A stretch of DNA of 64,000 nt. Source: Muriicola soli. GTDB lineage: Bacteria > Bacteroidota > Bacteroidia > Flavobacteriales > Flavobacteriaceae. Below the pieces are notes generated by a model. It was not told the DNA's origin, made no database searches, and saw only the letters and a list, made by a program, of their open reading frames with translations. Location of the stretch: positions 1,054,001-1,118,000 of the forward strand of contig NZ_CP035544.1 in the NCBI RefSeq assembly GCF_004139715.1, given 5' to 3'. Positions 4,283 through 38,616 of this stretch are shown here, in pieces. Numbering within the stretch: position 1 is the first letter of the stretch; every line of letters begins with the position of its first letter. The position numbers and the translations under genes are program-made.

Positions 4283-4297
4283 TTCAACAAGATAAAT

Positions 4298-12438: not shown

Positions 12439-12473
12439 TGTAAATTCATTGTTACAACTTTTTAATAAAGAAA

Positions 12474-19316: not shown

Positions 19317-19325
19317 GTTTAAGCC

Positions 19326-20117: not shown

Positions 20118-20138
20118 CTTTAAACATTAGTATTCTAA

Positions 20139-22532
20139 ATGGAGTTAAATACGACAGAACGAAATTCGGAATCTTTTGATTTTAAAGAATATTTACGAAA
20201 GTATACTAGACATTGGAAGTGGATTTTACTATCTGTTTTAATTTGCCTTGGTATCGCTTTTCTGGTGATGCGTTATGATATCCCGGAGTATCTAGCTCAG
20301 GCAAGCATAAGAATAAAAGATAGTGATTCGTCTTCTCAATTAAATGTCTTTCAAGATCTGGATGTATTTGCTAATCAAGACCAGAGCATTGTTGAAGATG
20401 AAATCTTGATTTTGAAATCCAGATCTTATTTAAAAGAAGTGGTAAGGCGGCTGAGTTTAAATAGGCGAATCTTTGTTAAAGGACAAATTATTGACAGTGA
20501 AATCTATAGAGATTCACCATTTAATTTCAATTTTATAGCTCCAGATTCGATAATAGAGGCAATGTCCTACGAATTTCATTTGAGAATAAGTTCTAAAGAG
20601 ACTTTTGGTTTCAGTCTTGATGACAGTGAAAACTTTACTTCTTTTCAATTTGGTAAAACAATCGAGACTCCAGCTGGAGAATTAATCATCACGCCAAATA
20701 TGGAGGATATTGGTGACCTTTATGGTAATCAATATCGGATAGTGATTTCACCTGTGACCAGAGTTGCTCAAAACTATAAGGATCGAATTTCCATATTACC
20801 TGAGGAGAAAGGTTCTATGGTTTTGGGTATTTACCTACGTGATCCTGTTCTTCAACGCGCCAAAGATGTAATCAACACACTCATTCAAGTTTACAATGAA
20901 AGCACAATATCAGATAAAAAAGCTATAGCAGACAAAACCTCGAGTTTTATAAACGATAGGATTAATAGTCTCTATGCAGAATTGTCTACGGTAGATCAGA
21001 CAGCAGAGGAGTTTAAATCTGACAGGCGCTTACCAGATATTGAATCTCAGTCTAGTTTAAACCTTTCCGAAGGTGCCCTATACGAAGGTGAATTACAAAA
21101 AACCGAAATACAATTGGATATCGCCTCCTCCATGAGGGATCTGGTCAATAACACAGAAGGATACGAATTGCTACCTTCAAACATCGGATTGGAGGATCTT
21201 TCAATTGCAGAAACGACTTTGAAATACAATGAATTAGCGTCTACCAGAAAACGCCTTCTAGAAAGTTCTAGTGAGAATAATCCTGTTATAAGAAATCTCG
21301 ACCAACAATTGGAAAGTTTGAAAGCGAACATGAGTTCGAGTTTAAGCAGCATGACGAATAATCTGAATTTGGAACGAAATAGTCTGAGTAAGCGACTTTC
21401 CAATATAAATTCACGCCTATACTCTGCTCCCAAGAATGAACGAACACTAAGGGATATTACACGAAAGCAAGAAACCAAGGAAGCCCTATATCTATATTTA
21501 CTTCAAAAACGAGAAGAATCTCAAATTGCCTTCGCTTCTGCTGAGGCAAAAATTAAAACGATTGATCCTGCCTATTCCCTAACTAATGGTCCAGTCGGGA
21601 TGGATAAACGCATAATTTATCTAGGATCTATACTAATTGGATTATTAATACCATTTTCCATTATTTACGTGAATGACTTATTAGATACTAAAATTCACAA
21701 TAAATTGGATCTGGAAAAATTGGCCCAGGATCTTCCTGTTCTAGGGGAGTTGCCAAAAGTAGGTAAAAGACAAAAAAAGATAATTCAAGAGGAAGATCGT
21801 TCAATTCTTGCTGAATCCATGAGAATTTTACGTACAAACCTAGATTACCTCCTTAAACTAAAAGAGGGCACAGATAAAAAAAATAATATCATCTTTGTGA
21901 CTTCTAGTGTCTCTGGGGAAGGAAAGACATTCCTTGCTGCTAATTTAGGCGTTGTGCTGGCAAATTCTGGTAAAAAAGTGGCTATAGTAGGCGCGGATAT
22001 ACGAAATCCTAAACTATCAACATTTGTAAAGGAGAATAGCTCGTCGTCAAATCAAAAGCAATCAGAATCCTTTGATGACCGATTAGGACTTACTGAGTTT
22101 CTTTTTAATAAGTCTCTTGATCCAGATGATTTGATAACAAGGATTGAGGTGAATAAAACTAAGTTGGACTTAGTGCGTTCAGGTAAGATACCTCCCAATC
22201 CCGCCGAATTATTATTAAGTCCACGATTAGAGAGCTTTTTTAATTCCCTATCAGAGGATTATGATTATGTTATTGTTGATACTGCGCCACTTCTAGTAGT
22301 TTCTGACACCTTGGTAATCTCCAAATACGCAAATTATATACTATATGTGGTTAGGGCAGGAAAAACGGAGAAAAAGGTAATTGATTTTCCGATAAAACTT
22401 GCCAATGAAGGGAAGCTAAAGAATTTTTCCTTTGTTATCAATGGTGTTGAAAATTCTAATCTTGGCTATGGAGGAAAATATGGATATGGGTATTCATCAA
22501 AGAAAAAGAGTCGATGGTACCAGAGGGCTTAA
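20139..22532 (+). CDS. Wzc-type tyrosine-protein kinase / polysaccharide co-polymerase
   Basis: A 797-residue protein. Residues ~20-45 form the first membrane helix, the periplasmic Wzz-like domain with long coiled-coil character runs to ~490, and IIYLGSILIGLLIPFSIIYV is the second helix. The cytoplasmic BY-kinase has Walker A SSVSGEGKTFLAANLG near 590, Walker A' VAIVGADIRNP near 615, and Walker B YDYVIVDTAPLLVVSD near 708. The tail holds the autophosphorylation Tyr cluster (NLGYGGKYGYGYSSKK). It controls chain length and export with Wza. Its last 4 bases overlap the 3' end of the opposing YwqE-type phosphatase gene. Confidence 0.94.
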   Translation: MELNTTERNSESFDFKEYLRKYTRHWKWILLSVLICLGIAFLVMRYDIPEYLAQASIRIKDSDSSSQLNVFQDLDVFANQDQSIVEDEILILKSRSYLKEVVRRLSLNRRIFVKGQIIDSEIYRDSPFNFNFIAPDSIIEAMSYEFHLRISSKETFGFSLDDSENFTSFQFGKTIETPAGELIITPNMEDIGDLYGNQYRIVISPVTRVAQNYKDRISILPEEKGSMVLGIYLRDPVLQRAKDVINTLIQVYNESTISDKKAIADKTSSFINDRINSLYAELSTVDQTAEEFKSDRRLPDIESQSSLNLSEGALYEGELQKTEIQLDIASSMRDLVNNTEGYELLPSNIGLEDLSIAETTLKYNELASTRKRLLESSSENNPVIRNLDQQLESLKANMSSSLSSMTNNLNLERNSLSKRLSNINSRLYSAPKNERTLRDITRKQETKEALYLYLLQKREESQIAFASAEAKIKTIDPAYSLTNGPVGMDKRIIYLGSILIGLLIPFSIIYVNDLLDTKIHNKLDLEKLAQDLPVLGELPKVGKRQKKIIQEEDRSILAESMRILRTNLDYLLKLKEGTDKKNNIIFVTSSVSGEGKTFLAANLGVVLANSGKKVAIVGADIRNPKLSTFVKENSSSSNQKQSESFDDRLGLTEFLFNKSLDPDDLITRIEVNKTKLDLVRSGKIPPNPAELLLSPRLESFFNSLSEDYDYVIVDTAPLLVVSDTLVISKYANYILYVVRAGKTEKKVIDFPIKLANEGKLKNFSFVINGVENSNLGYGGKYGYGYSSKKKSRWYQRA

Positions 22533-23269
22533 TAAAAGTTATCGATGTTTCGGTTGATCAGAGGTAATATTTTTTGTAAGCTCTTTGTTGATATCTGTAT
22601 TTCCTTTAATGCCTTTATATGTCTCAGAGAATGCACGTCCGTACCCAGAAATTCGTAAGCATCCTTTTCTAATAGATCATATGCTGTTCTCGACACACTT
22701 CTGCCATAATAATTGCCCAAAGACAGAAGGTTTAATTGAAATTTTATTCCAAGATCTTTATATGCCGCAAATACCTGTGGTGTTTGATGCAAATACACGT
22801 ATCGTTCTGGGTGAGCTAATATAGTAAAGTAGCCTGCTTGGGCACACTTAACAATGGCACTTTTAAAATTAATAGCAGGCTGTAAATAGGACATTTCCAC
22901 AAGTAAATAATTAGATGGAAGCGGCATAGTCTTCCCTTCTTGAAGTAATTTTTCAAAGCTGCCATCAATCATGTGTTCAGCTGCGGCAGCTAAGGCAATA
23001 TGCTTTTGGCCTTTGCGCAACAACTCGGACTTCAATCGAGTAAGAGCATTTTCAATGGTTTTTGGGGTATTCGGATAATAGTCGTTCATGATATGAGGCG
23101 TTGCAATAAAGTTGGTGACCCCAAACAATTCAAATTCTTTAATTAATGCCATAGATTCCTCCACCGTTTTAGCTCCATCGTCAATTCCTGGTAGAATGTG
23201 ATTATGGATATCTACGAAGCCTTTTAAGTGATCTATTAAAAAATTCTTCTTCAGAAAAATATGAAACAC
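22529..23269 (-). CDS. YwqE/CpsB-type PHP-domain tyrosine-protein phosphatase
   Basis: About 246 residues of a manganese-dependent PHP phosphatase that should dephosphorylate the Wzc kinase. Metal ligands are visible in GFVDIHNHILPGIDDGA (H-x-H), TPHIMNDYYPN, LLVEMSY, ILAHPERY and FLGTDVHSLRH. I place the start at the GTG at 23267-23269, giving MFHIFLKKNFLIDHL, which matches the family's N-terminus. The longer TTG start at 23290 would fall inside a -7-like box. Convergent with wzc, overlapping it by 4 bases, so kinase and phosphatase are separately transcribed. Confidence 0.9.
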   Translation of the reverse strand: MFHIFLKKNFLIDHLKGFVDIHNHILPGIDDGAKTVEESMALIKEFELFGVTNFIATPHIMNDYYPNTPKTIENALTRLKSELLRKGQKHIALAAAAEHMIDGSFEKLLQEGKTMPLPSNYLLVEMSYLQPAINFKSAIVKCAQAGYFTILAHPERYVYLHQTPQVFAAYKDLGIKFQLNLLSLGNYYGRSVSRTAYDLLEKDAYEFLGTDVHSLRHIKALKEIQISTKSLQKILPLINRNIDNFY

Positions 23270-23287
23270 CTTAAATTCGGTTTTTAG

Positions 23288-23295
23288 CAAAATTA
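23288..23295 (-). promoter_or_regulatory. Putative -7 box (TAATTTTG) for the YwqE-type gene
   Basis: CAAAATTA on the plus strand reads TAATTTTG on the minus strand, matching the Bacteroidota -7 consensus TAnnTTTG. Transcription would begin near 23281, giving a short leader before the GTG at 23269. No TTG was found at the usual -33 spacing, so support is partial. Confidence 0.4.
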
Positions 23296-23584: not shown

Positions 23585-24349
23585 TTAATCTGACTTAAAT
23601 TTTGGCAACGGAGCAAAAAAAAGTCTCCTTTGTGCGTAATTATTATTTTGAAAGGCTATTGCTCCAATATGATTTTCATCAACATCAAAGCTCCGGACAT
23701 GTATTTTTTTAAGATTACCTATTAATGATGAATCTACAGTATGCAAACCGTCCAAAGTAGGTATTTTTACAGTCTCACTATCAAGTCCCTTACCTGATGC
23801 TTTGACGATAGCCTCTTTTCTTGTCCAGTACTTATAAAAGGCATATACCTCATTTTCAGCATTAATTATGGAATCTATTTCTTTAGCACCGAATACGTTG
23901 GGTAAAATTTCCATAAAATCAAATTGATCATTCAAATATTCAATGTCAATACCAACCGGGCAGTTAGCTATAGCAATTAATCCATAAGCGCCCGCGTGAG
24001 AGACATTGAAATGAATAGAAGGATATGATGGTATAAAAGGCTTTTGATTGACAGATGACTCCAGCTTTATTTTATTGATAGTCAATCCTGTTCGTTCAAC
24101 AAGAAGGAGTTTTAATAGTATTCTGCAAATTATAAATCTATGCTTGTCTTCTTCAAAACGATATTTATTTGAACGTTCACGCTCAGATTTTGTTAAATAT
24201 AACTTGGCATCGCTTACCAATGGAACATACGATGCAATTTTTATTTTGTACAAACGTATTGGTTCACAGTCCTCTGTATCAATGCCGATGTTTATCGTAG
24301 ATAAATGTACTGAATTGCACAAAATATCAGACTTGTTACTCTGCTTCAT
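23585..24349 (-). CDS. Sfp-type 4'-phosphopantetheinyl transferase
   Basis: A 254-residue protein that converts apo- to holo-carrier proteins by attaching the phosphopantetheine arm from CoA to the Ser of PCP/ACP domains. Motifs: KYRFEEDKHRFIICRILLK, then HFNVSHAGAYGLIAI (P2), VGIDIEYL with metal-binding D and E, and YKYWTRKEAIVKASGKGL (W-x-x-K-E-A). Length suits the Sfp subclass. Its start lies inside the last 14 bases of the NRPS gene, so the two are translationally coupled. It is the dedicated activator of the three carrier domains upstream in the operon. Confidence 0.93.
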   Translation of the reverse strand: MKQSNKSDILCNSVHLSTINIGIDTEDCEPIRLYKIKIASYVPLVSDAKLYLTKSERERSNKYRFEEDKHRFIICRILLKLLLVERTGLTINKIKLESSVNQKPFIPSYPSIHFNVSHAGAYGLIAIANCPVGIDIEYLNDQFDFMEILPNVFGAKEIDSIINAENEVYAFYKYWTRKEAIVKASGKGLDSETVKIPTLDGLHTVDSSLIGNLKKIHVRSFDVDENHIGAIAFQNNNYAQRRLFFAPLPKFKSD

Positions 24350-27300
24350 AATTGTCTAATACTTCTTGAAGCTTATTTGCAAATTCTTCAACAACAGGAG
24401 ATAAGAACATTTCCGAATGATTTCCAGGCAAAGTATGCTTTCGAATACCTCCTTTGGCAACTTGTTTCCAGCCCAGGTATTTATAATCGTGCGCGAAATA
24501 AATGTTCTTGGAAGATCTAAATAAATCTACAGCCATATTCTCAGGTTCTATGCTATAACGCATAAAGGCCCGATTATGCATCTTATCAATCCTTGAAGTG
24601 CGGTTAAACTGTAATTGGCGTTGCTTTTCGCTTCCAAGTCTAATTCTCAAAAATAATCCATTGAAATATATCTTAAGTAATTGCACCCTTCTCTCAAAAT
24701 TCTTCTTACTACTAAACATATTGAATACCATGAATATCAATTGCGCTATGGCATAGAGAAACCAGGTAAACTTTTTTAAGATGGGATTTTTAAAATAATA
24801 ATTAGGATAGACATAGGAGTCGAATAAAGATAATGTCTTAACCACTTTACCCTTAGCTCTTAATTGTTTTGCCATCTCATAGGCAATGACACCCCCCATA
24901 GAAAAGCCTGCCAGGTTGATAGGTTTTTCAGGGCATATTGACAAAATCTCGGAGATATAATGGGCAGCCATATCTTCTATGGAATCATGGGGTTCCACCT
25001 CTCCACTCAATCCTTTGGCCTGTAATGCATATACAGGCTGGTCTTCAGCTAGATTTTCCGCAAGAGTTTTAAATATTAAGACGTTGTAGTTGGCTCCATG
25101 AACTATGAATATTGGGTTTTTGCTTCCATTTGTATTTAGTGGAACTAAAGAATCCCATGAGATATATTCCTTATTCATGTAGGCCGCTAATTTTGAAATG
25201 GTCGGATATTCCAATAAAGCAGCCAAGGGCAATCTATTTCCAGTCTGTTTTTCAATTTGCGACATTATTCTGACTGCCAAGAGCGAGTGTCCGCCTAACT
25301 CAAAAAAGTCATTATGACGATCTATTTTTTCGATATTTAAGACATCTTGCCAAATGGTTGAAATAATTTTTTCAGATTCTGTTAGATCAGCAGTTTCCTG
25401 TTTGTCTGTTTTAAATAAAATTGAATTAGTTAATGTTTTTCGATCTATTTTTCCATTTAGGGTTGTGGGAAATTCATCCATAAAAACAAATCGATGAGGA
25501 ACCATATGGGCGGGAAGCGTTTCCTTTAGATAGGTTTTCCAATGATCAATATTGTCATTAGAAATCTTTTCTGAATTCTTTGGAATTATATTCGCCACCA
25601 GAAGATCATTATTTACAACTACGACGGAAGAATTTACATCATCAAGAGAATCTAAAACTTGTTCAATCTCAGACAATTCAATTCTATGACCTCTGATCTT
25701 AACTTGTTGGTCGATTCTACCTAAGCATTGAACTTCTCCTGAGAGAAGCAACTTCCCTAAATCTCCTGTTCTATATAAAACCGAAGTCTTATTGAAAGGA
25801 TTAGAGATAAACTTCTCATTGGTTAATTCTGGACGTTTCCAGTACCCTTCAGATACACCATCTCCCGCAATACAGATTTCCCCGATAGTATTTGGAGGAA
25901 CTAAGTTTCCCTGCTCATTCAGAATATATAGCTGGGTATTAGCGATGGGATGCCCTATGGTTATAACACTATCTTCTTTTCCTATTTGTTTGACTGAAGA
26001 CCAAATTGTAGTTTCCGTTGGACCATATACATTCCATAACTCATTTACTCGATCCAATATCTTCTTTGCCAATCCCAAAGGAAGGGCCTCACCACCACAT
26101 ACCGCTTTAATTGATAAATGCCGATCCCATCCAACATCCAACAACATTTGCCAGCTAGTAGGTGTTGCTTGCAACATGGTTATATTTTCATTTTCTAATA
26201 GTTCCAACAGCAAACGACTATCTTTTGCCGTCTCATCGTCAGCCATTACCAATGTCGCTCCTTTTAATAGAGGAAGAAATATTTCTAATCCTGCAATGTC
26301 AAAAGATATGGTAGTTATTGAAAGCAGTCTGTCTGATTCCTCAATTCCTGGTTCACTCATCATACTAAATAAGAAGTTTACCAGGTTTTTGTGGGTAACC
26401 ATTACCCCTTTTGGCTTACCTGTAGACCCGGAGGTATACATCAAATATGAAATGCGACCCGTGTCAACCGAAACATTTGGTGGCGTATTGGGGTATTGAG
26501 CCAAACTTGAAAACAGTTCTTCAATAGACAGAACTTTTGAATCTGTTGTAAACGACTTTAAGAAATCCTTTGTGGTAATTAGAAATTTGGACTCCGAATC
26601 TTTGAGCATAAAATCTAAGCGAGCTGAAGGATAATTTGGATCTAACGGTATATATGAGGCACCACATTTCATTATAGACAGCAAGGTTACTACTAATTCT
26701 ATTGAACGCGGTAAAGCCACTGCAACATGATCCATAGGTTGCACGCCATGTTCAATTAGATTTTGAGATAGCTGATTTACCTTTTTCTCTAGTTCTTCAT
26801 AGGTGATCACCTCGTGTCCAAACTTTATTGCCTCCTTATTAGAAAATACTTTTGCCTGTTTGGATATAAGCTCATGCAAAGGAATATCCGGATAAGTAAC
26901 TGAAGTATCGTTTAATTTATTAAAAGATTGATTATCAACTTCTGTTAAATCTCCAATGGCTATATCCGGGTTATCAGTAATCCTATTCAGAACCTCCTTA
27001 AAAGAACCCATCATTTGTTCTACGGACTCAGAACTAAATAGTGTGCTATTATAAGACCATTCCAAAATGAGCTCCTCTTCTGATCCCATTGCATTCAGGA
27101 AAAGCTCAAAGGATTCAAAAGTTCTTGGGTTACTAATAAGCTCGTAATCAAGACCAGCAAAGGAAACATTACTAGTCATTCCAAAATCTATATTGAAAAC
27201 AACGGGAACCAATGGAACTCTGGAAGGGTCTCTGGAGACATTAAGTTTTTGGAGTAATTGACCAAAGCTAAATTGCTGATGATCATAAGCGTCGAAAAGT

Positions 27301-28310
27301 GATGGTTTACGTTCCTTAAGATAGGTGGAGAAAGAAATATTCGGATCTATTTTGCTCCGTAAGGGTAATAAGTTTACACAATGCCCTATCAGTTGCATCA
27401 TGCCCGTAGCAGCTTGTCCTGCGGCGGGCAAACCCACAATAACATCACTCTGACCTGTTTGGCGAAACAAAAAGATTTCAAAGGCAGCGAGTAGTGTGGT
27501 CACAAAACTACACCCATGTCGTACACCTGTTGCCTTAAGAGCATTCAATAGTTCCTTTTCTATAGGGAAATCAAGGCGAGCGCTTTTGTATGTTCTTAAC
27601 TTAGGTCTTGGGTTATCAGTTGGCAGGGTTACTTGTGGAATAGGTGATTTAAATTGTTTAAGCCAGAAATTCTCAGTTAATTTAAAGGAGTCACTCTTTA
27701 AGAACTTCTGTTCCAGGTCTATATAAGATTCAAATACAATTGGTTCCGGTAATTGAGGCATACGGTTCAACACCTTTGCCGAATAGAGTGCACCCAATTC
27801 TTCAAGGAAGATGCCAATAGACCATCCATCGCACACTATATGATGGGCCGTAAGTGTAAACCTGTAGGTTTGGTTAGATAATTTAAGAAGACTATACCTT
27901 GCTAAAGGCCCTTTTACAAGATCAAAAATATGATTAGCTTCTTGTAACAAAAATTGCTCAACTTCTTCCTCCTTTTTATTTTCCGGAAGCGTGGAGAGAT
28001 CTTTAAAGTATAATTTTTGAGGAATCTGTTGCAAAACACTCATAAAACGACCATCTGCACTAAATACCGCTCTTAAGCACTGATGTCTTTGTATAATTTC
28101 GTTTACACTTTGTTCAAGAATATTAAGTTGTAACTCTCCCTTGAGAATAAGAGACACAGACTCGTTATAGCCTCTATTTGCTTCGTCTTCTCCTATTTGA
28201 CAAGCAACCCAAATTTCAGCCTGTGATTGATTAATATGCATCACACGTTCAATTGTCGGCCCGTCAAATGGATTAAACTTTGACTTAACTAAATCTTTCG
28301 TTTCCTTCAT
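24336..28310 (-). CDS. NRPS module C-A-PCP-TE (termination module, predicted glycine)
   Basis: A 1324-residue peptide synthetase. The condensation domain (~20-460) has HHIVCDG at ~156-162 (complete HHxxxDG). The adenylation domain (~475-955) has YTSGSTGKPKG at ~625, NVYGPTETT at ~760, YRTGDLG at ~845 and NGKIDRK at ~953. The PCP has ELGGHSLL with the attachment Ser near 1009. The thioesterase (~1065-1320) has AGFSMGG with Ser near 1137 and LPGNHSEM with the His near the end. By eye alignment to GrsA the pocket residues read D-I-L-Q-V-G-V-I-W, close to known glycine codes (DILQ-G-IW). The TE lid has a strongly hydrophobic stretch (WFLYAIAQLIFMVFNMF). It acts after the 2207-aa protein and releases the product. 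Confidence 0.93.
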   Translation of the reverse strand: MKETKDLVKSKFNPFDGPTIERVMHINQSQAEIWVACQIGEDEANRGYNESVSLILKGELQLNILEQSVNEIIQRHQCLRAVFSADGRFMSVLQQIPQKLYFKDLSTLPENKKEEEVEQFLLQEANHIFDLVKGPLARYSLLKLSNQTYRFTLTAHHIVCDGWSIGIFLEELGALYSAKVLNRMPQLPEPIVFESYIDLEQKFLKSDSFKLTENFWLKQFKSPIPQVTLPTDNPRPKLRTYKSARLDFPIEKELLNALKATGVRHGCSFVTTLLAAFEIFLFRQTGQSDVIVGLPAAGQAATGMMQLIGHCVNLLPLRSKIDPNISFSTYLKERKPSLFDAYDHQQFSFGQLLQKLNVSRDPSRVPLVPVVFNIDFGMTSNVSFAGLDYELISNPRTFESFELFLNAMGSEEELILEWSYNSTLFSSESVEQMMGSFKEVLNRITDNPDIAIGDLTEVDNQSFNKLNDTSVTYPDIPLHELISKQAKVFSNKEAIKFGHEVITYEELEKKVNQLSQNLIEHGVQPMDHVAVALPRSIELVVTLLSIMKCGASYIPLDPNYPSARLDFMLKDSESKFLITTKDFLKSFTTDSKVLSIEELFSSLAQYPNTPPNVSVDTGRISYLMYTSGSTGKPKGVMVTHKNLVNFLFSMMSEPGIEESDRLLSITTISFDIAGLEIFLPLLKGATLVMADDETAKDSRLLLELLENENITMLQATPTSWQMLLDVGWDRHLSIKAVCGGEALPLGLAKKILDRVNELWNVYGPTETTIWSSVKQIGKEDSVITIGHPIANTQLYILNEQGNLVPPNTIGEICIAGDGVSEGYWKRPELTNEKFISNPFNKTSVLYRTGDLGKLLLSGEVQCLGRIDQQVKIRGHRIELSEIEQVLDSLDDVNSSVVVVNNDLLVANIIPKNSEKISNDNIDHWKTYLKETLPAHMVPHRFVFMDEFPTTLNGKIDRKTLTNSILFKTDKQETADLTESEKIISTIWQDVLNIEKIDRHNDFFELGGHSLLAVRIMSQIEKQTGNRLPLAALLEYPTISKLAAYMNKEYISWDSLVPLNTNGSKNPIFIVHGANYNVLIFKTLAENLAEDQPVYALQAKGLSGEVEPHDSIEDMAAHYISEILSICPEKPINLAGFSMGGVIAYEMAKQLRAKGKVVKTLSLFDSYVYPNYYFKNPILKKFTWFLYAIAQLIFMVFNMFSSKKNFERRVQLLKIYFNGLFLRIRLGSEKQRQLQFNRTSRIDKMHNRAFMRYSIEPENMAVDLFRSSKNIYFAHDYKYLGWKQVAKGGIRKHTLPGNHSEMFLSPVVEEFANKLQEVLDNYEAE

Positions 28311-28351
28311 AATTTTAATGAATCATAAAACAGTGTTTGCAAATAATTATT

Positions 28352-31300
28352 TTATAATTCAATCTTTACATATTCGTCATTTTCCCCAACAACAAACCAT
28401 GCCGGATTACCAAGCTCATCAAATCCAAGGCGCGCATTTGGAACAGGTGGGGTATTTAGATCTCCATTGTTTATAACACTTGATTTAGAATTAACTTCCA
28501 ATGTATATGGGAAAATCTCAACTGCTATTAACTCTTCCAGGGAAGATATTACAGCTGCAATTACTTTCTTAACATCTTCCTTTGTATAGGCTTCTGTAAT
28601 AAAACAAGGAAATCCATCCCATATATGAAAACCTTTTTCTCTAAGTAAGACGAATAATAATTCGGAATATGGAATTTCTTCCAAAAACTTAATTCTCCAA
28701 AGAGAGCTATAATGAGTAATTACGATTGGGAGGTTTTTCTTTTTAAACCAAACATTTAGTTCATTGGCTAGATATTCGGTCATATCAGACAGTTTTTTCT
28801 GTAGTTCCGGACCTTTATCTTTTAAGTAAGTTAATGAGGCCTTACAAGCAGCAAGGGCCAAAGGGTGTCTTACAAATGTTCCCGCAAAGTAGGTAACACC
28901 AACTTCTGGATAGGAATCATCACCATATTGCCAGAAACCACCATCCAAGGCATCCATATATATTTTATTACCCAAAATTGCTCCAATGGATAAACCACCT
29001 CCAATTACTTTTCCATAGGTAGCCAGATCGGCCCTTATATCAAATAATGCCTGCGCACCTCCGGGATGTGTTCGAAAGCCTGTAATAACTTCATCAAATA
29101 TTAAAACTGTACCGGAATCTTTTGTGATATCACGTACTTGTTTCAAAAAGTCAATAGGTACAAATTCTGGTCTACGACTTTGTACAGGCTCAACAAGAAC
29201 CGCTGCTAATTCATGGGCTCGTCCCCGTATAATAGCCAGGCTTTCTTCCGTACCATAGTCTAATATAAGGACATTTTGAACAGCTCCTGGTAAAATACCG
29301 GCCGCTGCAGGAAAGGTTTTTAATTTACGTGACCCTCGTACAATTGCTTCGTCATTTATTCCGTGATAAGATCCTTTGAATGCCACTATAAGTGATCGCC
29401 CCGTAACTGTCCTGGCGATCCGCATACTACCCAGAACAGCCTCTGACCCTGTGTTACACAATGCAGCACGATCATGACCAGTCATCTCACACAGCAACTC
29501 ACAAACTTCACCGGCTAAGGGATGCTGTGGACCTACTTCGTAACCCTTTTCTACCTGATCTTGAATGGCCTTTTTGATAAAATCCGGTTGGTGGCCAAAG
29601 AAACAGGAGCCAAAACCGTTTAGGGTATCGATATACTCATTACCATCTAAGTCCCACAACCTGTTTCCTGCTGATTTCTCCACCACGATTGGATAAACTA
29701 GTTCTTTTGTCAAAGGCTTAAAGCCCGATACAACCCTGGGATCAGCCATACGAGCGCGATGTTTCTGGCTATATGTTTTACTCCCTGAAGTCTTCCTGTT
29801 ATAGCGATCTATTAAATCGGCTAAGAAGTTTTCTTGCAATTGACTTAACCCAGTCTTCACCTTTTCAATTTTCGGTGCAGCACCAAAAGGTTTGCTGTGT
29901 TCCTTTTTTTCAGCCTCCGACAAGGTTTCATTATTGACATTAGTAGCTAATGGTAAAGCTCCCATTTTGGGAGGGGTGGCCATTTGAGAATTTGTACCAT
30001 TACCCTGAAGTAATGCTATTTGCTTACCCAAAAGTTCAATTTGCTGAGCAATTAAACCTAAAGCTGAATCCTGGTTAATATTAGCACTATAGTTTTGAAG
30101 TGGGGGAGAAGATACGGTTGGTGTTGATTTGACCTCCGGGGAATCCGGTTTACCAACAGGTTTAAATAGTTCTACAGGTAAATTTTTATCCAAATACTCG
30201 GCTAAAAGATCAGGAGTATTTAATTCATCGTTTAATTGGCGAAAGGTAATTGGAATTTGGAATTCATTTTTACAAGTAGTGGCTAATTGAGTGAGTATTA
30301 GTGAATCCAGCCCAAGTTCAAGAAAATTAAATTCATAATCAGAATCCTCCAATTCTATTCCGGCTGTATCGTTTAGTATATCAGATAATTTTTGAATGAT
30401 ATTACTTTTTCTCATAGGTTTGGTATCGTTACTTCTTAAATTGGCATCGTTGTTTTGACCATTTGCTATATTTATATTTTCTTCACTTAATGCAGTAATT
30501 GGTGAAACAGCCAAATCAGATACGGGTGGATCAATCCAACAGGGTTTGCGATCAAAAGCATAAGAAGGAAGGGTTAAGCTGATTCTTGATTGTTCATTAT
30601 AGAATTCTGACCAATCTGGAGTAATGCCGTTTAGCCACAGTTGTCCAAGGGACCCTAGTAATGATGGATATGCTCCCTCCTCCTTCTTTGGCTTTGGCAA
30701 GCTAGCTAAAGCCGTTAATGACCTACCTTCTTTTTTCTGCTTTGATAAGGTCACCAGGGTTTGCCCAGGACCTACTTCCAGTAGAATCGGATTATCCAAT
30801 TCAAGAATGGTGTCCATAGCATCCGCGAAACGAACAGTATCACGTAAATGATTTGTCCAATATTCAGAACTAATTGCCTCAGAATCTTTTAGCCATTTTC
30901 CGGTAACTGTAGAAACGATTGGTATTCGAGGAACTTTCAAGGAAACATCTTCTACTTTGCTTTTAAATTCTTCCAGGATAGGATCCATCATAGTCGAGTG
31001 GAAGGCATGACTAGTGGCCAGATGCTGATGTGATATATTTTTATTTTTCAGAATTTTTGAGAATCTTTCTATTTCATCTATTGGGCCTGATACTACACAC
31101 AGTCTATCTGAATTCAATGCAGCAATAGATATACCTTTTGGAAGTATTTCATATACCTTGTCCTTTTCCAGCCGTAATGATAACATACTTCCCTTTGGTA
31201 ATTCACTTACCAACTTTCCTCGTATTGCGACTATTTTTAGAGCATCTTTTAGACTGAATATGCCTGCTAAATGCGCCGCAACGAATTCTCCAATGCTATG

Positions 31301-34300
31301 ACCACATAATAATGTTGGTTTTATTCCCCAGCTTAACCATAGCTGGGAAAGCGCATATTCGGTTACAAAAATGGCAGGTTGGGTGTATCTGGTATCTTTA
31401 AGCTTTTCTTCAGCTTTTAAAAGTTCAGCATTTGGGAATAGTATTTCTCTTATATCTTCTTTTAGGTACTCCTTAAGTATTTCAGAACATGAGTCCACAG
31501 CCTGTTGATAGACTTTTTCATGTTCGTAGAGTGATCTTCCCATGTGTATATACTGCGCCCCTTGTCCCGGGTACAGAAACGCAAGTTCATCAGGAGTAAT
31601 TTTAAGTGTATTACTTTTTATATTTTCAATCTCGTTGTTTATCAATATGCTAGTTGCATCAGAAGTATTATTGACTATTGCAAATCGTCTATGAGAAAAC
31701 TCTTCCCGGGTTTTCTGCAAACTATAGCATACATCGGCCATGTTCACTGTCGGGTTATTAGCCAAAAATTGAGCTAGAGATTTATTATAGCCGTCCAAAC
31801 TAGTTTGGGACTTGGCGGACCAAGTTAAAAGCTGCATTGGTCTGCCAGAATCTGAAGATTTCAAATTCATTTGGTACTCTTCTAAGACTACATGAACATT
31901 CGTTCCTCCAACACCAAAAGAACTTACGCCAGCCCTTCGAGCTCCGTTAAAACTCCATTCGTTTAATTGATCATTAACATAAAATGGACTTCCTTTAAAT
32001 TCGATAACTGGATTGGGTATTTCAAAGCCCAACGAAGGAGGAATTTGTTTGTGCTTTAGAGCTAATAATGTCTTTATCAATCCTGCAACTCCGGCGGCCG
32101 CTGTTAAATGCCCCATATTACTTTTTATAGAGCCTATTGCACAGAATTCACTCTTTAGTTGTTCACCGAAGGCCATACGAAGGCCTTCAAATTCGATTGG
32201 ATCGCCCAAGGGAGTAGCGGTGCCATGAACTTCAATATAACTTATTGATGAAGGGGATATGTTTGCATCCAAGATAGCTCTCCTAATGACATCTGCTTGT
32301 CCTTCAGCAGAAGGAGCAGTAAAACTTCCTTTATTTCCGCCGTCATTATTAACCCCCACCCCTTTAATTACTCCATAGATAGTATCTCCGTCTTTTTCAG
32401 CCGATTCGAGACTTTTAAGAACAACAACACCTGCACCATCGCTAAAAACTGTACCCTTGGCTTGTGCATCGAATGGCCTGCAATGTCCATCAGGACTTAA
32501 CATAGACCCTTCTTGATAAAGGTGTCCACTATTTATTGGTGAGGTAAGACTTGCACCACCCGCTAGAGCGATTTCACACTGTCCATTTCTAATTGCTTGA
32601 ACCGCCTCTGCAATAGCAAGAAGCGAGGTGGAGCAGGCTGATTGTACGCTTACTGCGGGACCTTTTAGATTTAGATGATATGCAGTCCTAGAGGAAATAT
32701 AATCCTTTTCGTTAACTGTATCAGTTTGCAGAACACCGACCTGTTTTAATAATTCTTTATTAGGTAGAACATTCTTTTTGTAATATGTATTTGTACCAGT
32801 ACCTGCGTAAACTCCTATACTTCCATTAAAGTGGCTTGGAAGATAACCTGACTGTTCAAGAGCTTCCCACGCAATTTCAAGAAACATACGTTGCTGTGGA
32901 TCCATTGCTTCCGCTAATTTTGGGTTGATTCCAAAAAATTTAGCATCAAAATATTTAGCAGATGGCACAATACCTCTTGCTCCCACGTAAAGAGGATCAT
33001 TGCGCAATAGTTCAGGTAGATTCTTATCGAGCTCTTCAGGGGCAAAAAAAGTTGTTGTTTCTTTACCTTCTCTAAGAATTTCCCATAATTCATGGATAGT
33101 ATTGGCACCTGGAAATCTCCCGGACATGCCTATTACCGCAATATCTTTGGAAATTTCGATTTTATCTTTCTCTGAATAACTGTAGTCAGAAATTGAAGTT
33201 TTGTTACTCTCAACATATTTGGATAATGATTCTACGGTTGGAAATTGATATATTTTAGTTACAGGAATATTGCAGTTCAGTTTTTTCTTTAATAATCCAG
33301 CCACTTTTTGAGTGAGTATTGAAGTTCCACCCATTTCAAAGAAATTATCCTCAATGCTTATTATGGGGATTTGCAGTTGTTCGCGCCATATCCCTGCTAT
33401 ATTTTTTTCAAGCCTGGTGCGAGGTTTTTTTACCGGTGGTGCTGAAGCTGGTCTTTGATAAACAGGATTCGGTAAATTCTTCTTGTCGATTTTCCCATTT
33501 TTAGTTACCGGAAATTTCTCTACCCAAATAAAAATTGAAGGAATCATGTAATCAGGAAGAATTTCTTCAAGCTGTTTACGAACAAAGGTGGTATCCTGTT
33601 TGTTATCGGAAGATTGTAAGTAGGCTAATATTCTAGATTTGCCTCCTAACCTTTCATCTAAAATAACTACACATTTTTTAATGTTCGGAAGTTTTGTTAG
33701 TACTTCTTGAATTTCACCAAGTTCAATACGATGCCCTCTTAGTTTTATCTGCTCATCCTTCCGTCCTAGACATTGCACTTCTCCATTTGGTAAGATTTTA
33801 CCAATATCGCCACTTAGATACATTTTACCATTACCACGAAAATGATCATTAATAAAGCGCTCATCATTTAATTCCGGTCGATTCAAGTAACCCAATGAAA
33901 CGCCATCACCACCTATAACAATTTCTCCTTCTTCACCTTGCTTTACAGGATTACCTTCTTTGTCTAAAATATATGCATATGAATTAGCGACTGGTTTTCC
34001 TATAGCAATAGGATCGTCATCTTCTGAAATTCTAGTTAGGAAGGCACAAACAGTTGTTTCTGTTGGACCATATATATTCCACAATTCAGTGCATAAAGTA
34101 AGGAGTTTTCTTGCCAAGTTCAAGGGTACGGCTTCTCCTCCTATTAAAGCTTTGAGTTTTAAAGGTTTTTCCCAACCAGAATCTAATAGTATTTGCCATA
34201 TACTTGGCGTTCCCCACATCATGGTTATGTTGTCTTCCAGGGCTTTCTCTAATAGTTTTTGACCATCTAGTCTTGTATCTTCATCTACAAGAACTACGGT

Positions 34301-34975
34301 AGCCCCATGTAGTAACGGTAAGTATATTTCCATTACCATAGCGTCAAATGAGATGGAAGTAACTGCAAATATTTTGTCATTTCTTGAAATACCAGGTTCA
34401 TCACCCATGGAATAAACAAGATTTATTGCATTTAGGTGAGAAACTTGAACGCCTTTTGGCTTACCAGTAGATCCAGAAGTGTAAATAATATAGGCTACTG
34501 AGTTAGAATCTATTTCTAGATCAAGGGATTTAGAAGTTAAGTCTTCTCTATCATTTCTCAGTTCTTCAATAAAAATATTCTTTTCACTTTTAATAACACT
34601 ATTGTTTAGAGATTCAGTTATTATGAAACTGGCATCAGAATCGTCAATCATAATTTCTTTTCTCTTTAAAGGATAGGTAACATCAATTGGCACGTAACCA
34701 GCACCACATTGCAGAATTGCGAAAATGGATATGATAAGTTCCGGAGATCTTTCTAAAGAGAGGGCTACAATTTGACCAGGACGGAGCCCCCTATTATACA
34801 AATATTGAGCGGATTGGTTAATACTTTCCTGTAGTCTCTTATAACTAATTCTTTGTTCACCAAATTCCAGTGCAATAGCATCAGGATTTTCATTGGCCTG
34901 ATATTCCAGCAGCTTATGTAGAGTTGAATTTGGATATTTAAGAATTGGTCCTTTAATCGTATAGTTAGGGTTCAT
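28352..34975 (-). CDS. Hybrid NRPS-PKS A-PCP-KS-AT-ACP-aminotransferase
   Basis: A 2207-residue assembly-line protein. A domain ~1-505 (YTSGSTGKPKG ~166, NIYGPTETT ~300, NGKIDKK ~493). PCP (EMGGTSIL, Ser ~552). KS ~610-1035 with Cys in SACSTSL ~781, VEVHGTATPLG-type His ~917 and NMGHLTAA His ~955. AT ~1130-1430 with GHSIGE ~1225 and SHAFH ~1323, the malonyl-type signature. ACP (LGLDSL, Ser ~1558). Then a linker and a class-III PLP aminotransferase ~1740-2150 with NTGSEAVLGSMRIAR, FDEVITGFR and Lys in TYGKVIGGG ~1988. No KR, DH, ER or MT domain lies between AT and ACP. The tail PVPNARLGFDELGNPAWFV resembles sequence between AMT and C domains in fused systems. The first pocket residue is Asp, so the starter should be an amino acid (D-A-M-W-L-G-I-V-C, not assigned). 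First gene of the operon; no exact -7 box was found upstream. Confidence 0.93.
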   Translation of the reverse strand: MNPNYTIKGPILKYPNSTLHKLLEYQANENPDAIALEFGEQRISYKRLQESINQSAQYLYNRGLRPGQIVALSLERSPELIISIFAILQCGAGYVPIDVTYPLKRKEIMIDDSDASFIITESLNNSVIKSEKNIFIEELRNDREDLTSKSLDLEIDSNSVAYIIYTSGSTGKPKGVQVSHLNAINLVYSMGDEPGISRNDKIFAVTSISFDAMVMEIYLPLLHGATVVLVDEDTRLDGQKLLEKALEDNITMMWGTPSIWQILLDSGWEKPLKLKALIGGEAVPLNLARKLLTLCTELWNIYGPTETTVCAFLTRISEDDDPIAIGKPVANSYAYILDKEGNPVKQGEEGEIVIGGDGVSLGYLNRPELNDERFINDHFRGNGKMYLSGDIGKILPNGEVQCLGRKDEQIKLRGHRIELGEIQEVLTKLPNIKKCVVILDERLGGKSRILAYLQSSDNKQDTTFVRKQLEEILPDYMIPSIFIWVEKFPVTKNGKIDKKNLPNPVYQRPASAPPVKKPRTRLEKNIAGIWREQLQIPIISIEDNFFEMGGTSILTQKVAGLLKKKLNCNIPVTKIYQFPTVESLSKYVESNKTSISDYSYSEKDKIEISKDIAVIGMSGRFPGANTIHELWEILREGKETTTFFAPEELDKNLPELLRNDPLYVGARGIVPSAKYFDAKFFGINPKLAEAMDPQQRMFLEIAWEALEQSGYLPSHFNGSIGVYAGTGTNTYYKKNVLPNKELLKQVGVLQTDTVNEKDYISSRTAYHLNLKGPAVSVQSACSTSLLAIAEAVQAIRNGQCEIALAGGASLTSPINSGHLYQEGSMLSPDGHCRPFDAQAKGTVFSDGAGVVVLKSLESAEKDGDTIYGVIKGVGVNNDGGNKGSFTAPSAEGQADVIRRAILDANISPSSISYIEVHGTATPLGDPIEFEGLRMAFGEQLKSEFCAIGSIKSNMGHLTAAAGVAGLIKTLLALKHKQIPPSLGFEIPNPVIEFKGSPFYVNDQLNEWSFNGARRAGVSSFGVGGTNVHVVLEEYQMNLKSSDSGRPMQLLTWSAKSQTSLDGYNKSLAQFLANNPTVNMADVCYSLQKTREEFSHRRFAIVNNTSDATSILINNEIENIKSNTLKITPDELAFLYPGQGAQYIHMGRSLYEHEKVYQQAVDSCSEILKEYLKEDIREILFPNAELLKAEEKLKDTRYTQPAIFVTEYALSQLWLSWGIKPTLLCGHSIGEFVAAHLAGIFSLKDALKIVAIRGKLVSELPKGSMLSLRLEKDKVYEILPKGISIAALNSDRLCVVSGPIDEIERFSKILKNKNISHQHLATSHAFHSTMMDPILEEFKSKVEDVSLKVPRIPIVSTVTGKWLKDSEAISSEYWTNHLRDTVRFADAMDTILELDNPILLEVGPGQTLVTLSKQKKEGRSLTALASLPKPKKEEGAYPSLLGSLGQLWLNGITPDWSEFYNEQSRISLTLPSYAFDRKPCWIDPPVSDLAVSPITALSEENINIANGQNNDANLRSNDTKPMRKSNIIQKLSDILNDTAGIELEDSDYEFNFLELGLDSLILTQLATTCKNEFQIPITFRQLNDELNTPDLLAEYLDKNLPVELFKPVGKPDSPEVKSTPTVSSPPLQNYSANINQDSALGLIAQQIELLGKQIALLQGNGTNSQMATPPKMGALPLATNVNNETLSEAEKKEHSKPFGAAPKIEKVKTGLSQLQENFLADLIDRYNRKTSGSKTYSQKHRARMADPRVVSGFKPLTKELVYPIVVEKSAGNRLWDLDGNEYIDTLNGFGSCFFGHQPDFIKKAIQDQVEKGYEVGPQHPLAGEVCELLCEMTGHDRAALCNTGSEAVLGSMRIARTVTGRSLIVAFKGSYHGINDEAIVRGSRKLKTFPAAAGILPGAVQNVLILDYGTEESLAIIRGRAHELAAVLVEPVQSRRPEFVPIDFLKQVRDITKDSGTVLIFDEVITGFRTHPGGAQALFDIRADLATYGKVIGGGLSIGAILGNKIYMDALDGGFWQYGDDSYPEVGVTYFAGTFVRHPLALAACKASLTYLKDKGPELQKKLSDMTEYLANELNVWFKKKNLPIVITHYSSLWRIKFLEEIPYSELLFVLLREKGFHIWDGFPCFITEAYTKEDVKKVIAAVISSLEELIAVEIFPYTLEVNSKSSVINNGDLNTPPVPNARLGFDELGNPAWFVVGENDEYVKIEL

Positions 34976-35375: not shown

Positions 35376-36170
35376 TTGAAAAACTATCTCTTCAAGTATG
35401 AAATCTGGATATTTTTGGTCCTTGCCCCTCTTATAAATACTCTAGTTGTTTATTTAAGAACTAATGGCCTGATCAGTAGCTTTATTTATGACCATGGTCG
35501 CTTTTTCGCACTTCTACTTTTATTGGTGAGCCTAATAAATCTAACCAAGGGTATTGAGGGGGTAAAGAATATTTTTAGGCCTATGTTAAATTGGAAAATT
35601 AACCCAATTTGGTATCTGTTTAGTTTATCATTCGCTTTTACTATAGCTTCATTAACATTGATTTTGAAAGGGTTCTACAATAGTATTGAACTTTCAATTC
35701 TATTTAAACTAGATCCTTATGTAACTGTTAAAAGTAGTTTGGTTATATTAATATGGGCTTTTGTGGGAGAGGTTGTTTGGGTTAGTTACTGCGTGCGAGA
35801 ATTGTCGAAAGTCACAAGACCATTTTATTCTAGTCAAATAATCGGCTTCTTTTGGGCCTTATGGTGGGTTCCTGTTGTTTATCTAAATCAAGGTGTTATT
35901 CTTGACCTGCCCTTATGGCCTTTATTTTTAAATATGATGGGGGCGGCAGGTATGTGTACTTTTGTTTATGGTCATACAAAGAGTGGGTTGTGCGTTTGGC
36001 TGTTGCAGTTTATGTTGAATATGTCAATTATTTTACTTCCAGTCTCGCCCAAAATAGGAGGTGTACCTACTTATTCTCTTTTTGCTGTGCTTTATTTTTC
36101 TGCTATGTTGGTATTAATGTATTTTTTTTATCCTTCAAAAAAAATTATTTCTTTAAAAAGAGCAAACTAA
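35376..36170 (+). CDS. CPBP-fold membrane protein lacking the protease residues
   Basis: A 264-residue, about eight-helix membrane protein. The CPBP (Abi, CAAX-protease/bacteriocin-processing) layout is clear in order: FVGEVVWVSYCVREL where active members have GEExxxR, FFWALWWVPVVY where they have LWHLP, and LLQFMLNMS where they have HxxxN. The second Glu, the Arg and both catalytic His are replaced, so it should not be a protease. The start is a TTG at 35376; no ATG is available near it. It is divergent from the NRPS-PKS operon. CPBP proteins are often tied to immunity against small peptides, so a self-protection or product-binding role is inferred, not shown. The family call rests on motif order. 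Confidence 0.65.
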   Translation: MKNYLFKYEIWIFLVLAPLINTLVVYLRTNGLISSFIYDHGRFFALLLLLVSLINLTKGIEGVKNIFRPMLNWKINPIWYLFSLSFAFTIASLTLILKGFYNSIELSILFKLDPYVTVKSSLVILIWAFVGEVVWVSYCVRELSKVTRPFYSSQIIGFFWALWWVPVVYLNQGVILDLPLWPLFLNMMGAAGMCTFVYGHTKSGLCVWLLQFMLNMSIILLPVSPKIGGVPTYSLFAVLYFSAMLVLMYFFYPSKKIISLKRAN

Positions 36171-36195: not shown

Positions 36196-37038
36196 TCAAT
36201 TCTCGGCACCTAGGAAGCATAACCTTGAAAATTGATTATTAGATAAGAATGAAAGGTGCCAAATAGTGAAACTCGCCTCTTGAAATTGTTTAGGATAGTT
36301 ATGCGAGAAAGAATGTTCGTGCCCATAGATTTGAGATTTAGGGTTAGAATTAAAATCATGATCTAATCCAATAGGCTCAATAGCAATAAAAACTATATTA
36401 TTCAAAGTACTTAAATGTTGTATTAATGATTCTAATTGATTTTGCGTGAAATATTCCAGTACCCCCATGAAGGTTACAAAAATTGAATTTCCCTGAGGAT
36501 TAATTGCTATCCAATCGTTAATGTCTTTTGCAACAAATTCAAGTTTTTTATTACCAGCATATTTTATTTCATTAAGTTTTATTTGATCGAGACTAAGATC
36601 AACACCAATAAATCTCTGGATGTCCGGAAATTTCTTGGATAAATAAGAAAGGATATAACCATTTCCACACCCTATTTCTACCAGAGAATCATATTTTATT
36701 TGAGTATTAGCTAGTTTTTTCTGGAGCAAATCAAAAATGAACTCGGATTTGGGCAAATCATTGTTCACTAATCTTTCTTCATATTTTGAGCAGAATTCAT
36801 GACCTTGATTTATCCAAAAATCCTTGTGAATACTTGCTAGAGATTCTGCGCCCGCATTTTCTGCTTTTTTGAGAAGAGCTCGTCTCATTAATTTGTCAGT
36901 TATTGTAGGATTATTATCTACAAAAAAACTCAAGCCCTGAATTTGTAATTCCTTTGCTCTTTTCGGAAATAATACAAGCATAATATTACCAACCGTAACG
37001 GTTAGGATTTTAATGACAATTGAACGAAGCTTTTTCAT
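36196..37038 (-). CDS. Class I SAM-dependent methyltransferase
   Basis: A 280-residue protein with a hydrophobic N-terminus (VIKILTVTVGNIMLVLF), then a Rossmann methyltransferase core: VEIGCGNGYILSYL (motif I) near 115, FIGVDLSLDQI (SAM ribose-binding acidic residue), and LEFVAKDINDWI. The substrate cannot be read. It is convergent with the CPBP-like gene (25-base gap) and lies between the assembly line and mnmE. It could be a tailoring enzyme for the NRPS-PKS product or an unrelated gene. Its DNA is AT-rich, like the island rather than the housekeeping side. Confidence 0.8.
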   Translation of the reverse strand: MKKLRSIVIKILTVTVGNIMLVLFPKRAKELQIQGLSFFVDNNPTITDKLMRRALLKKAENAGAESLASIHKDFWINQGHEFCSKYEERLVNNDLPKSEFIFDLLQKKLANTQIKYDSLVEIGCGNGYILSYLSKKFPDIQRFIGVDLSLDQIKLNEIKYAGNKKLEFVAKDINDWIAINPQGNSIFVTFMGVLEYFTQNQLESLIQHLSTLNNIVFIAIEPIGLDHDFNSNPKSQIYGHEHSFSHNYPKQFQEASFTIWHLSFLSNNQFSRLCFLGAEN

Positions 37039-37218: not shown

Positions 37219-38616
37219 TTACTTCCCGATACAAAAATTCGAAAAGATATTGCCCAGCAGGTCGTCCGAACTGATTTTTCCGGTAATTTCCCCGAGGTGG
37301 TAGAGGACCTGACGGATATCAACGGCCAGTAAATCGCCTGAAAGACCGGCTTCAAGGCCCTCCTGAACTTTAACTATTTCTTCTGTTGCCTTTATCAATG
37401 CATTGTAATGGCGTGAGTTAGAGATAATGGTATCTCCAGAGGAAAGCGCTCCGGTATTTACCAGCTCCAGAAACACATCTTTCAGCTTTTCCAGACCTGA
37501 ATTTTCCTTCGCCGAGATATAAAGAGCTGTTGGCAATTCCCCCTTTAGGTCCGATAAGATTTTGTCGTCGAGGGCGTCGACTTTATTGAATACCAGCAAA
37601 ATTCTTTTATTCGGATAACTATCCCTCAGGGACTCCAACCTGTGTTGAGCCTTTTCGAGTTTTGAGTTGGAATTTCCCAGTTCAAAGGCATCGACGAGGT
37701 AGATGACCAAACCCGCCTTCTCAATCTTCTCATGGGTCTTGCGTATTCCTATCGATTCCACGACGTCTTCAGTGTCCCTTATCCCAGCAGTATCGATAAA
37801 GCGAAATCCGATCCCGCCGATCACGAGTTCGTCCTCAATGGTATCTCTTGTGGTCCCCGGGATAGGACTTACAATAGCGCGTTCCTCTTTTAACAAGGCG
37901 TTCAGAAGAGTGGATTTACCCACATTCGGCTCACCAACTATAGCGATCGGGATACCATTTTTTATGACATTTCCCAAGGCAAAGGAATCGACAAGATTCT
38001 TGAAGACGGCTTGAATCCGGACAAGCAGTTCAGAGAACTGTGCTTTGTCTGCAAATTCAACGTCTTCCTCAGCAAAATCCAGCTCGAGTTCAATCAGGGA
38101 GGCAAAATTGAGCAATTCTTCGCGCAGCTTTGAGATCTCATTGCTAAATCCACCACGCATCTGTTGAAGGGCGAGCTGGTGGGATGCAGCATTCTCGGAG
38201 GCGATCAGGTCGGCTACGGCTTCGGCCTGACTAAGATCTAATTTTCCATTAAGAAATCCTCTCAGGGTAAATTCTCCTGCCTCGGCCATGCGGCACCCTT
38301 TTCGTAAAAACAGTTGTATGATTTCCTGCTGAATATAGGGTGAACCATGACATGAGATCTCAATCACATTTTCCCCGGTGTAGGAATTAGGGCCTTTGAA
38401 CACGGTGACCAAGACCTGGTCTATGGTTCGGGAGCCATCCATGATATATCCCAGGTGAACGGTATGACTTTTTTCTTGTGTAAGAAGTTTGGAACTGTTC
38501 GGGCGAAATACTTCAGAGGTTTTTGAAATGGCGTCCCTGCCTGAGACGCGTATAACGGCGATGGCTCCGGTGCCCGGAGCTGTGGCCATTGCTACAATAG
38601 TATCCTGAGGGATCAT
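37219..38616 (-). CDS. mnmE: tRNA modification GTPase MnmE
   Basis: A 465-residue protein of standard length. It starts DTIVAMATAPGTGAIAVIRV and has the folate-binding N-domain with GRDAISKTSEVF, the helical domain, and an inserted G domain: VGEPNVGKSTLLNAL near 225, PGTTRDTIEDE (G2) near 250, DTAGIRDTED (G3) and FNKVDALDD (G4). It ends FCIGK, the C-x-G-K motif needed for chemistry. With MnmG it makes 5-carboxymethylaminomethyl-uridine at the wobble position of tRNAs. It marks the return to housekeeping composition. A -7-like TATTTTTG lies at 38630-38637 on the minus strand. Confidence 0.97.
   Translation of the reverse strand: MIPQDTIVAMATAPGTGAIAVIRVSGRDAISKTSEVFRPNSSKLLTQEKSHTVHLGYIMDGSRTIDQVLVTVFKGPNSYTGENVIEISCHGSPYIQQEIIQLFLRKGCRMAEAGEFTLRGFLNGKLDLSQAEAVADLIASENAASHQLALQQMRGGFSNEISKLREELLNFASLIELELDFAEEDVEFADKAQFSELLVRIQAVFKNLVDSFALGNVIKNGIPIAIVGEPNVGKSTLLNALLKEERAIVSPIPGTTRDTIEDELVIGGIGFRFIDTAGIRDTEDVVESIGIRKTHEKIEKAGLVIYLVDAFELGNSNSKLEKAQHRLESLRDSYPNKRILLVFNKVDALDDKILSDLKGELPTALYISAKENSGLEKLKDVFLELVNTGALSSGDTIISNSRHYNALIKATEEIVKVQEGLEAGLSGDLLAVDIRQVLYHLGEITGKISSDDLLGNIFSNFCIGK

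Follow-up and report, generated by a model that had tools for sequence, protein, structure and literature searches.

What would a compact hybrid of nonribosomal peptide synthetase (NRPS) and polyketide synthase (PKS) with an in-line aminotransferase (AMT) make, and does such a line occur beyond the genome in which it was noticed? The question is raised by a 64,000-nucleotide stretch of Muriicola soli DNA (assembly GCF_004139715.1, contig NZ_CP035544.1, positions 1,054,001 to 1,118,000), referred to here as the window and numbered from its first letter. The cluster that it carries is not a one-off but a member of a family widespread in Bacteroidota genera. On balance, the evidence favors a compact, Bacteroidota-wide line that would make a 3,4-diaminoacyl-glycine, probably methylated in the group to which the window belongs and with a first residue that appears to vary as starter adenylation (A) domains exchange their cores. 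The remaining domains are peptidyl carrier protein (PCP), ketosynthase (KS), acyltransferase (AT), acyl carrier protein (ACP), condensation (C) and thioesterase (TE), and the core features are as follows.

28352..34975, minus strand: hybrid megasynthase A-PCP-KS-AT-ACP-AMT, 2207 amino acids (open reading frame [ORF], Pfam and aligned residues; starter A code, from its motifs, DAMWIGIVCK)
28355..29860, minus strand: AMT domain of the megasynthase, with the C-terminal tail PPVPNARLG, used as search query
24336..28310, minus strand: NRPS C-A-PCP-TE, 1324 amino acids (ORF and Pfam; A code DILQCGVIWK, glycine-like, identical at 8 of 10 positions to the reference glycine code)
23585..24349, minus strand: 4'-phosphopantetheinyl transferase (PPTase), 254 amino acids (Pfam ACPS; NCBIfam matches below cut-off)

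Domain content and proposed route

Domains were called with Pfam at a threshold of E ≤ 0.001. The megasynthase matched AMP-binding, PP-binding (two stretches), ketoacyl-synt N and C, Acyl_transf_1 and Aminotran_3, the NRPS matched Condensation, AMP-binding, PP-binding and Thioesterase, and the PPTase ORF matched ACPS. No ketoreductase (KR), dehydratase or enoylreductase model matched the two megasynthase proteins. The window thus contains the A, PCP, KS, AT, ACP, C and TE domains of a hybrid NRPS-type I PKS with their active-site residues, and an Aminotran_3 domain C-terminal to the ACP in which the pyridoxal phosphate (PLP) Lys and an Asp are present. At E ≤ 1e-60, the AMT domain matched only two PDB sequences, both of the mycosubtilin AMT (best E value, 2.5e-118, to 6kfm). 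The initial annotation, made from the sequence alone, had given the three ORFs, their coordinates and their domain strings exactly, had noted the missing reductive domains, and had placed the AMT in the mycosubtilin class; on all of these points the present analysis agrees with it. Between the megasynthase and NRPS genes lie 41 bp, and the NRPS and PPTase ORFs share 14 bp, from which it is fair to infer that the three genes form a single operon. The only Condensation match in the 3.07-Mb single-contig genome is that of the window NRPS.

In the proposed route, the PPTase would arm the three carrier domains and the N-terminal A domain would load the first amino acid, which in the window is probably hydrophobic. 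The KS and AT would add malonyl to give a gamma-amino-beta-keto thioester, the beta-ketone of which the AMT would convert to an amine, yielding a 3,4-diaminoacyl-ACP. The NRPS C domain would then join the 3,4-diaminoacyl chain to glycine, and the TE would release a 3,4-diaminoacyl-glycine, either as a linear acid or as a 7-membered lactam. The same module logic had been read from the sequence initially, and the A-domain starter, the AT motif HAFH, which is by rule of the malonyl type, and the terminal TE support it. The second amino acid had been left open at that time and can be proposed as glycine from the A code.

Parts of this architecture are known from other systems. MycA of the mycosubtilin/iturin lines has the in-line Aminotran_3 domain in common with the window but acts on a fatty acyl chain within a much longer lipopeptide line, whereas the window chain begins on an A domain, and two amino acid modules are typical of the family. 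The microcystin protein McyE likewise carries KS-AT-ACP-AMT before an NRPS module, but it belongs to a multi-module macrocycle line with an Adda-type polyketide and is not known to include a short line with an A-domain starter. Statine-type NRPS-PKS units also extend an amino acid by one malonyl, but there the KR gives a C3 alcohol, whereas the window has the AMT in the place of the KR.

The amine donor of MycA is given as glutamine (PMC3870968). The same paper, a survey of PLP domains, tabulates the Pedobacter heparinus protein C6XWU5 as A-CP-KS-AT-CP-PLP1, a megasynthase layout identical to that of the window, with the antiSMASH string Nrp-Mal-Gly-Pk (PMC3870968, Table 2). The glycine-like second code of the window is in line with this string. 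Available passages of the survey link the entry to no product, starter exchange or methyltransferase. The layout, which had initially been regarded as undescribed, is therefore in print, and a one-off is ruled out by this entry together with the widespread homologues; what stands is that no product for the layout was found in the literature searched, outside the coverage of which lay MIBiG and most subscription journals. A survey of 600 Bacteroidetes genomes reported 306 gene cluster families, of which 12 carried a MIBiG reference (PMC9248904), and in another of 2,680 Flavobacteriaceae genomes NRPS-PKS hybrids made up 6.68% of clusters (PMC10734526). The word "aminotransferase" is absent from the main text of both, and either could include the cluster and leave the domain unnamed, for example in supplements.

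Distribution and conservation of the cluster family

In order to follow the family across genomes, the AMT domain was used as the query at E ≤ 1e-75. Among 397 genomes of Flavobacteriaceae, the family of M. soli, 17 passed this threshold; in 15 of them (including M. soli) the match was at least 68% identical and lay in an open frame of 1893 to 2474 amino acids, and the other two matches were 43% and 39% identical. Of 395 genomes drawn from the whole class, 38 passed, 35 of them (again including M. soli) at ≥57% identity and three with a best match of 38 to 43%. A pattern scan of one genome per species gave at least 595 stretches, of which at least 583 were confirmed, although two patterns can match one locus, so that this figure is not a count of loci. 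The best 80 of these stretches were taken as a set of loci, which is uninformative on weaker relatives elsewhere. Judged by record title and taxonomy, all 80 belong to Bacteroidota, and they include Winogradskyella, Maribacter, Flavobacterium, Gelidibacter, Pedobacter, Mucilaginibacter, Hymenobacter, Spirosoma, Larkinella and Fibrisoma, among others. Fifteen class-wide matches came from one genus outside Flavobacteriaceae (group g264; e.g., loci L130 and L134), with 57 to 59% AMT identity.

A partner gene of the C-A-PCP-TE type was located no more than three genes downstream of the megasynthase in 73 of the 80 loci, a PPTase homologue no more than six genes downstream in 61, and both together in 57. 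The window shows the arrangement that characterizes the family, a megasynthase followed by a C-A-PCP-TE gene that may include an in-line N-methyltransferase (nMT). In one genome (L132), the megasynthase and partner are fused into a single ORF of 3437 amino acids, as would be expected if the AMT passes its product on to the C domain.

The initial annotation had also considered all core motifs intact, and this was borne out by alignment of the window megasynthase with 77 homologues longer than 1800 amino acids, from 77 of the 80 loci. Invariant in all 78 sequences were A10 Lys495, Ser552 of the first PCP, KS Cys781, His917 and His956, AT Ser1227 and the HAFH motif, ACP Ser1558, and AMT Asp1961 with the PLP Lys1989; the A4 Asp was found in 76, the other two having gaps. 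The presence of carrier domains was taken from this residue alignment, as a carrier regular expression misses carriers in many proteins. The window NRPS was aligned with 61 single-module homologues drawn from 77 partner-type ORFs (1300 to 1420 amino acids). The C-domain His and Asp, PCP Ser, A10 Lys and TE His were present in all 62 sequences and the TE Ser in 61.

A variant was seen in four Maribacter loci (L059 to L062). The megasynthase there is about 2460 amino acids long (cut in L061), with a C domain detected before the A domain in L059 and L062, and is followed by a PPTase gene and Wza/Wzc homologues in place of the usual C-A-PCP-TE gene. An NRPS-like gene lies upstream of the megasynthase in L059, L060 and L062.

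Starter A domains

The displayed PDB alignments of both A domains were to linear gramicidin synthase and not to GrsA, and specificity codes were therefore mapped by core motifs. Starter A cores were compared among 72 megasynthases of 2050 to 2300 amino acids, namely, the window protein and 71 of the 77 homologues. By motif and alignment, the commonest starter code was DVQFTGQVVK (35 sequences); DAENAGAVTK occurred in five, and DATKVGEVGK, DPEHAGKISK, DFWNYGMVHK, DLTKFGHIGK and others were also found. Judged against reference codes, some of these resemble the codes for Asn, Thr or Asp, and the ones whose third letter is Glu seem to point to a basic residue. The second A domain was far more uniform: its code was mostly DILQCGxIWK, and in 53 of 62 partners 6 to 9 of the 10 positions were identical to the reference glycine code.

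The diversity of starter codes was not matched by the rest of the megasynthase. Between pairs with different codes, A-core identity averaged 0.33 and stayed at 0.31 to 0.34 in each of the KS..AMT identity bins between 0.5 and 0.8, whereas between pairs with the same code it climbed from 0.51 to 0.70 across these bins. In two Flavobacterium loci (L071 and L073), for example, the KS..AMT regions are 80% identical and the C-terminal A subdomain plus PCP 60% identical, while the A cores share 28%. Phylogenetic trees pointed in the same direction. The DAMW-like group, to which the window code belongs, was monophyletic in the A-core tree (support, 0.925), as was the DAEN/DAEH group (1.0), but neither was monophyletic for KS..AMT. 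Of the 69 splits compared, 20 were common to both trees, and 11 of the 27 strongly supported A-core splits conflicted with strongly supported KS..AMT splits.

These results, which are new here, show that the core of the starter A domain has been exchanged repeatedly while most of the line was kept, and that the family has diversified partly in this way. Natural recombination of A-domain cores with retained flanks has been described for wollamide and desotamide within one Streptomyces genome (PMC9205934). The exchange seen here is of the same kind but affects the starter A domain, in a line that is otherwise conserved, and extends across genera. It offers a natural series of core exchanges on one chassis, useful for A-domain swapping in assembly lines.

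The five loci with the code DAENAGAVTK are all from Winogradskyella, and in all five a related gene lies directly upstream of the megasynthase. In L050 the product of this gene (positions 3290 to 4384 of the locus; relatives in L055 to L058) has an alanine-racemase fold and an NCBIfam match to ornithine racemase below the cut-off.

Methylation, genomic setting and alternative readings

The cluster was initially taken to span 23585..34975. The three genes in this interval were right, but two further genes were missed, and with them the cluster extends to 37038, an extension that is new here.

36196..37038, minus strand: class I S-adenosylmethionine (SAM) methyltransferase, 280 amino acids (Pfam; co-occurs with the cluster in Flavobacteriaceae)
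35376..36170, plus strand: multi-transmembrane CAAX-protease-like (Rce1-like) membrane protein, 264 amino acids (Pfam E value of 6e-4, a weak match below the cut-off)

Co-occurrence was evaluated in 15 Flavobacteriaceae genomes with the cluster and 30 without it; 36 of the 45 were at least 90% complete with no more than 5% contamination, and a genome with only a more distant AMT (G027) was placed among the 30. A methyltransferase homologue (E ≤ 1e-25) was present in 13 of the 15 and in none of the 30 (Fisher P value, 1.4e-9), and a homologue of the membrane protein in 6 of the 15 and in none of the 30 (P value, 6e-4), values that overstate independence, as the genomes are related. Eleven of the 13 methyltransferase homologues were on the contig of the AMT gene, and those of G171 and G300 were on another contig. 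Of the 80 loci, 26 had the methyltransferase and 16 had the membrane protein within the fetched DNA. As a guess, the membrane protein could be an immunity or export helper.

The clustered methyltransferase probably methylates the product in the group of the window. In 10 loci (Larkinella and Pedobacter) the partner is enlarged to a size expected for an in-line nMT, and the stand-alone methyltransferase was found in none of these; the nMT was detected by Pfam in L088, and a BLAST layout seeded from L088 placed it in equally many (10) partners. Some clusters that lack the stand-alone enzyme carry an N-methyltransferase within the glycine module, and many show neither in the vicinity. The structure model of the methyltransferase had a pLDDT of 90.5. 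Its fold was also considered as a guide to the substrate, but the 50 Foldseek matches listed were methyltransferases of diverse kinds, with TM-scores by query length of 0.36 to 0.57; as they span class I SAM methyltransferases in general, no substrate was assigned.

Several observations weigh against a single product of the type proposed. The 26 loci with a stand-alone methyltransferase and the 10 with an nMT-sized partner do not overlap, leaving 44 of 80 with neither in the fetched DNA, so that methylation does not characterize the family as a whole; the two routes to it follow taxonomic lines, and common descent may explain why they exclude each other. The usual partner gene was missing from 7 of the 80 loci, comprising two cut by contig ends (L065 and L118), the Maribacter variant (L059 to L062) and one with another gene at that position (L076), and the megasynthase of L131 stands without a partner gene. 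Extra modules were found in L071, L073, L078, L081, L083 and L108, and 9 of 62 partner A domains were not glycine-like. The core product therefore differs among members. The codes themselves were derived from motifs and set against reference codes, none of which the window code DAMWIGIVCK matches well. With regard to exchange, L101 and L128 differ in code yet have an A-core identity of 0.55 at a KS..AMT identity of 0.81, so that not every code change needs an exchange, and the large DVQ group was monophyletic in neither tree. What the analysis establishes is the gene content and order, the intact motifs and their conservation, the co-occurrence of the methyltransferase and the A-core exchange; the substrates, the C3 amine, the methylation and its target, and the structure and role of the released compound are inferred.

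It is possible, although we consider it the less probable outcome, that the line makes a heterocycle and releases no free diamine. The gamma-amino-beta-keto thioester could become a tetramic acid or pyrrolinone, as such thioesters close spontaneously, or the TE, with its Ser in 61 and its His in all 62 partners, could form a 1,4-diazepane-2,5-dione through the new amine. The nMT-sized partners in 10 loci would favor ring closure if the amide nitrogen is methylated. However, the AMT Asp and Lys, invariant in all 78 megasynthases, argue that amination is used, and nothing in the sequence fixes the mode of release.

The surroundings of the window cluster raise another possibility. A capsule/exopolysaccharide (EPS) cluster at 9647-23290 adjoins it, with genes for Wzx, a UDP-sugar dehydrogenase, epimerases, a DegT aminotransferase, a CapD-like protein, Wza, Wzc and CpsB. 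The product might accordingly be a building block or substituent for the adjoining polysaccharide and not a free small molecule. Wza genes were located within 20 kb of 6 of 50 AMT loci (49 genomes; 1.26 expected; P = 0.0019), and other loci are flanked by glycosyltransferases, a sugar transferase or Wzc-like genes. However, the proximity came from 5 of 15 Flavobacteriaceae loci, including the window, which prompted the test (0.33 expected), versus just 1 of 35 others, and is a trend in one family and not a family-wide link. The sugar-transferase marker PF02397 looked weakly enriched near the loci, by eye, among the matches listed, and the TE would free the product from the enzyme.

The site itself also bears on this possibility. 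The window cluster is located between mnmE (37219-38616) and CpsB (22529-23290). In a species of the same genus (L136), mnmE and CpsB/Wzc homologues flank instead a 1691-amino-acid Invasin/Big_1 protein and a 964-amino-acid PEP-utiliser, so that the neighborhood need not be functional for the cluster. In L135, also of this genus, mnmE is followed by ORFs of 1791 and 909 amino acids, neither of which matches the window, and in Flavobacteriales bacterium ALC-1 (L069) the cluster is preceded by an mnmE homologue and followed by dnaN. These differences indicate a variable site at which the cluster has been acquired, lost or swapped. Because the Wza link is enriched in Flavobacteriaceae alone and the neighborhood is present without the cluster in the sister species, a role in polysaccharide assembly seems unlikely.

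No megasynthase homologue was found in eight searched genomes of the genus (three of them under 90% complete), where the best matches were short aminotransferase-type ORFs aligning to the AMT region; the cluster is thus not essential in the genus, but the long intact ORFs and conserved active sites of the window and its homologues make a decayed or nonfunctional relic very improbable.

A 3,4-diaminoacyl-glycine thus remains the preferred product for the window. Its extension to the phylum is more tentative: Bacteroidota might share a family of short 3,4-diaminoacyl-glycines in which the malonyl-amination-glycine portion is fixed, with methylation in some lineages, and the head is lineage-specific and changed by A-core exchange. 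A fixed tail with an exchangeable head across a phylum is the most interesting part of this proposal, and such a design, if true, would suit lineage-specific signals or ligands. Being small and intact, shared by several groups of environmental Bacteroidota and with no product found, the line of two proteins is an easy target for heterologous expression; one solved structure would bear on many clusters, and the line offers a possible route to vicinal diamines.

A metallophore, in which the vicinal diamine, amide and carboxylate would bind metal, was also considered; no TonB-dependent receptor or metal uptake genes were found among the window ORFs scanned by Pfam, and the idea is kept only as a chemical thought. 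Further genes were noted in or near clusters of other genomes. A putative hydroxylase of the Cupin_8 (JmjC-like) type is encoded at 11530-12408 of L067 (Pfam, run on L067 alone), with relatives in 12 of the 80 loci, 10 of which have a DVQ-type starter code (Fisher P value, 0.028). A peptidase S46 gene (722 amino acids; L094, 72-2240; Pfam on L094) lies upstream of the Pedobacter cluster, with relatives in L100, L108, L123 and L127, and could reflect synteny within the genus or be a target or self-protection gene.

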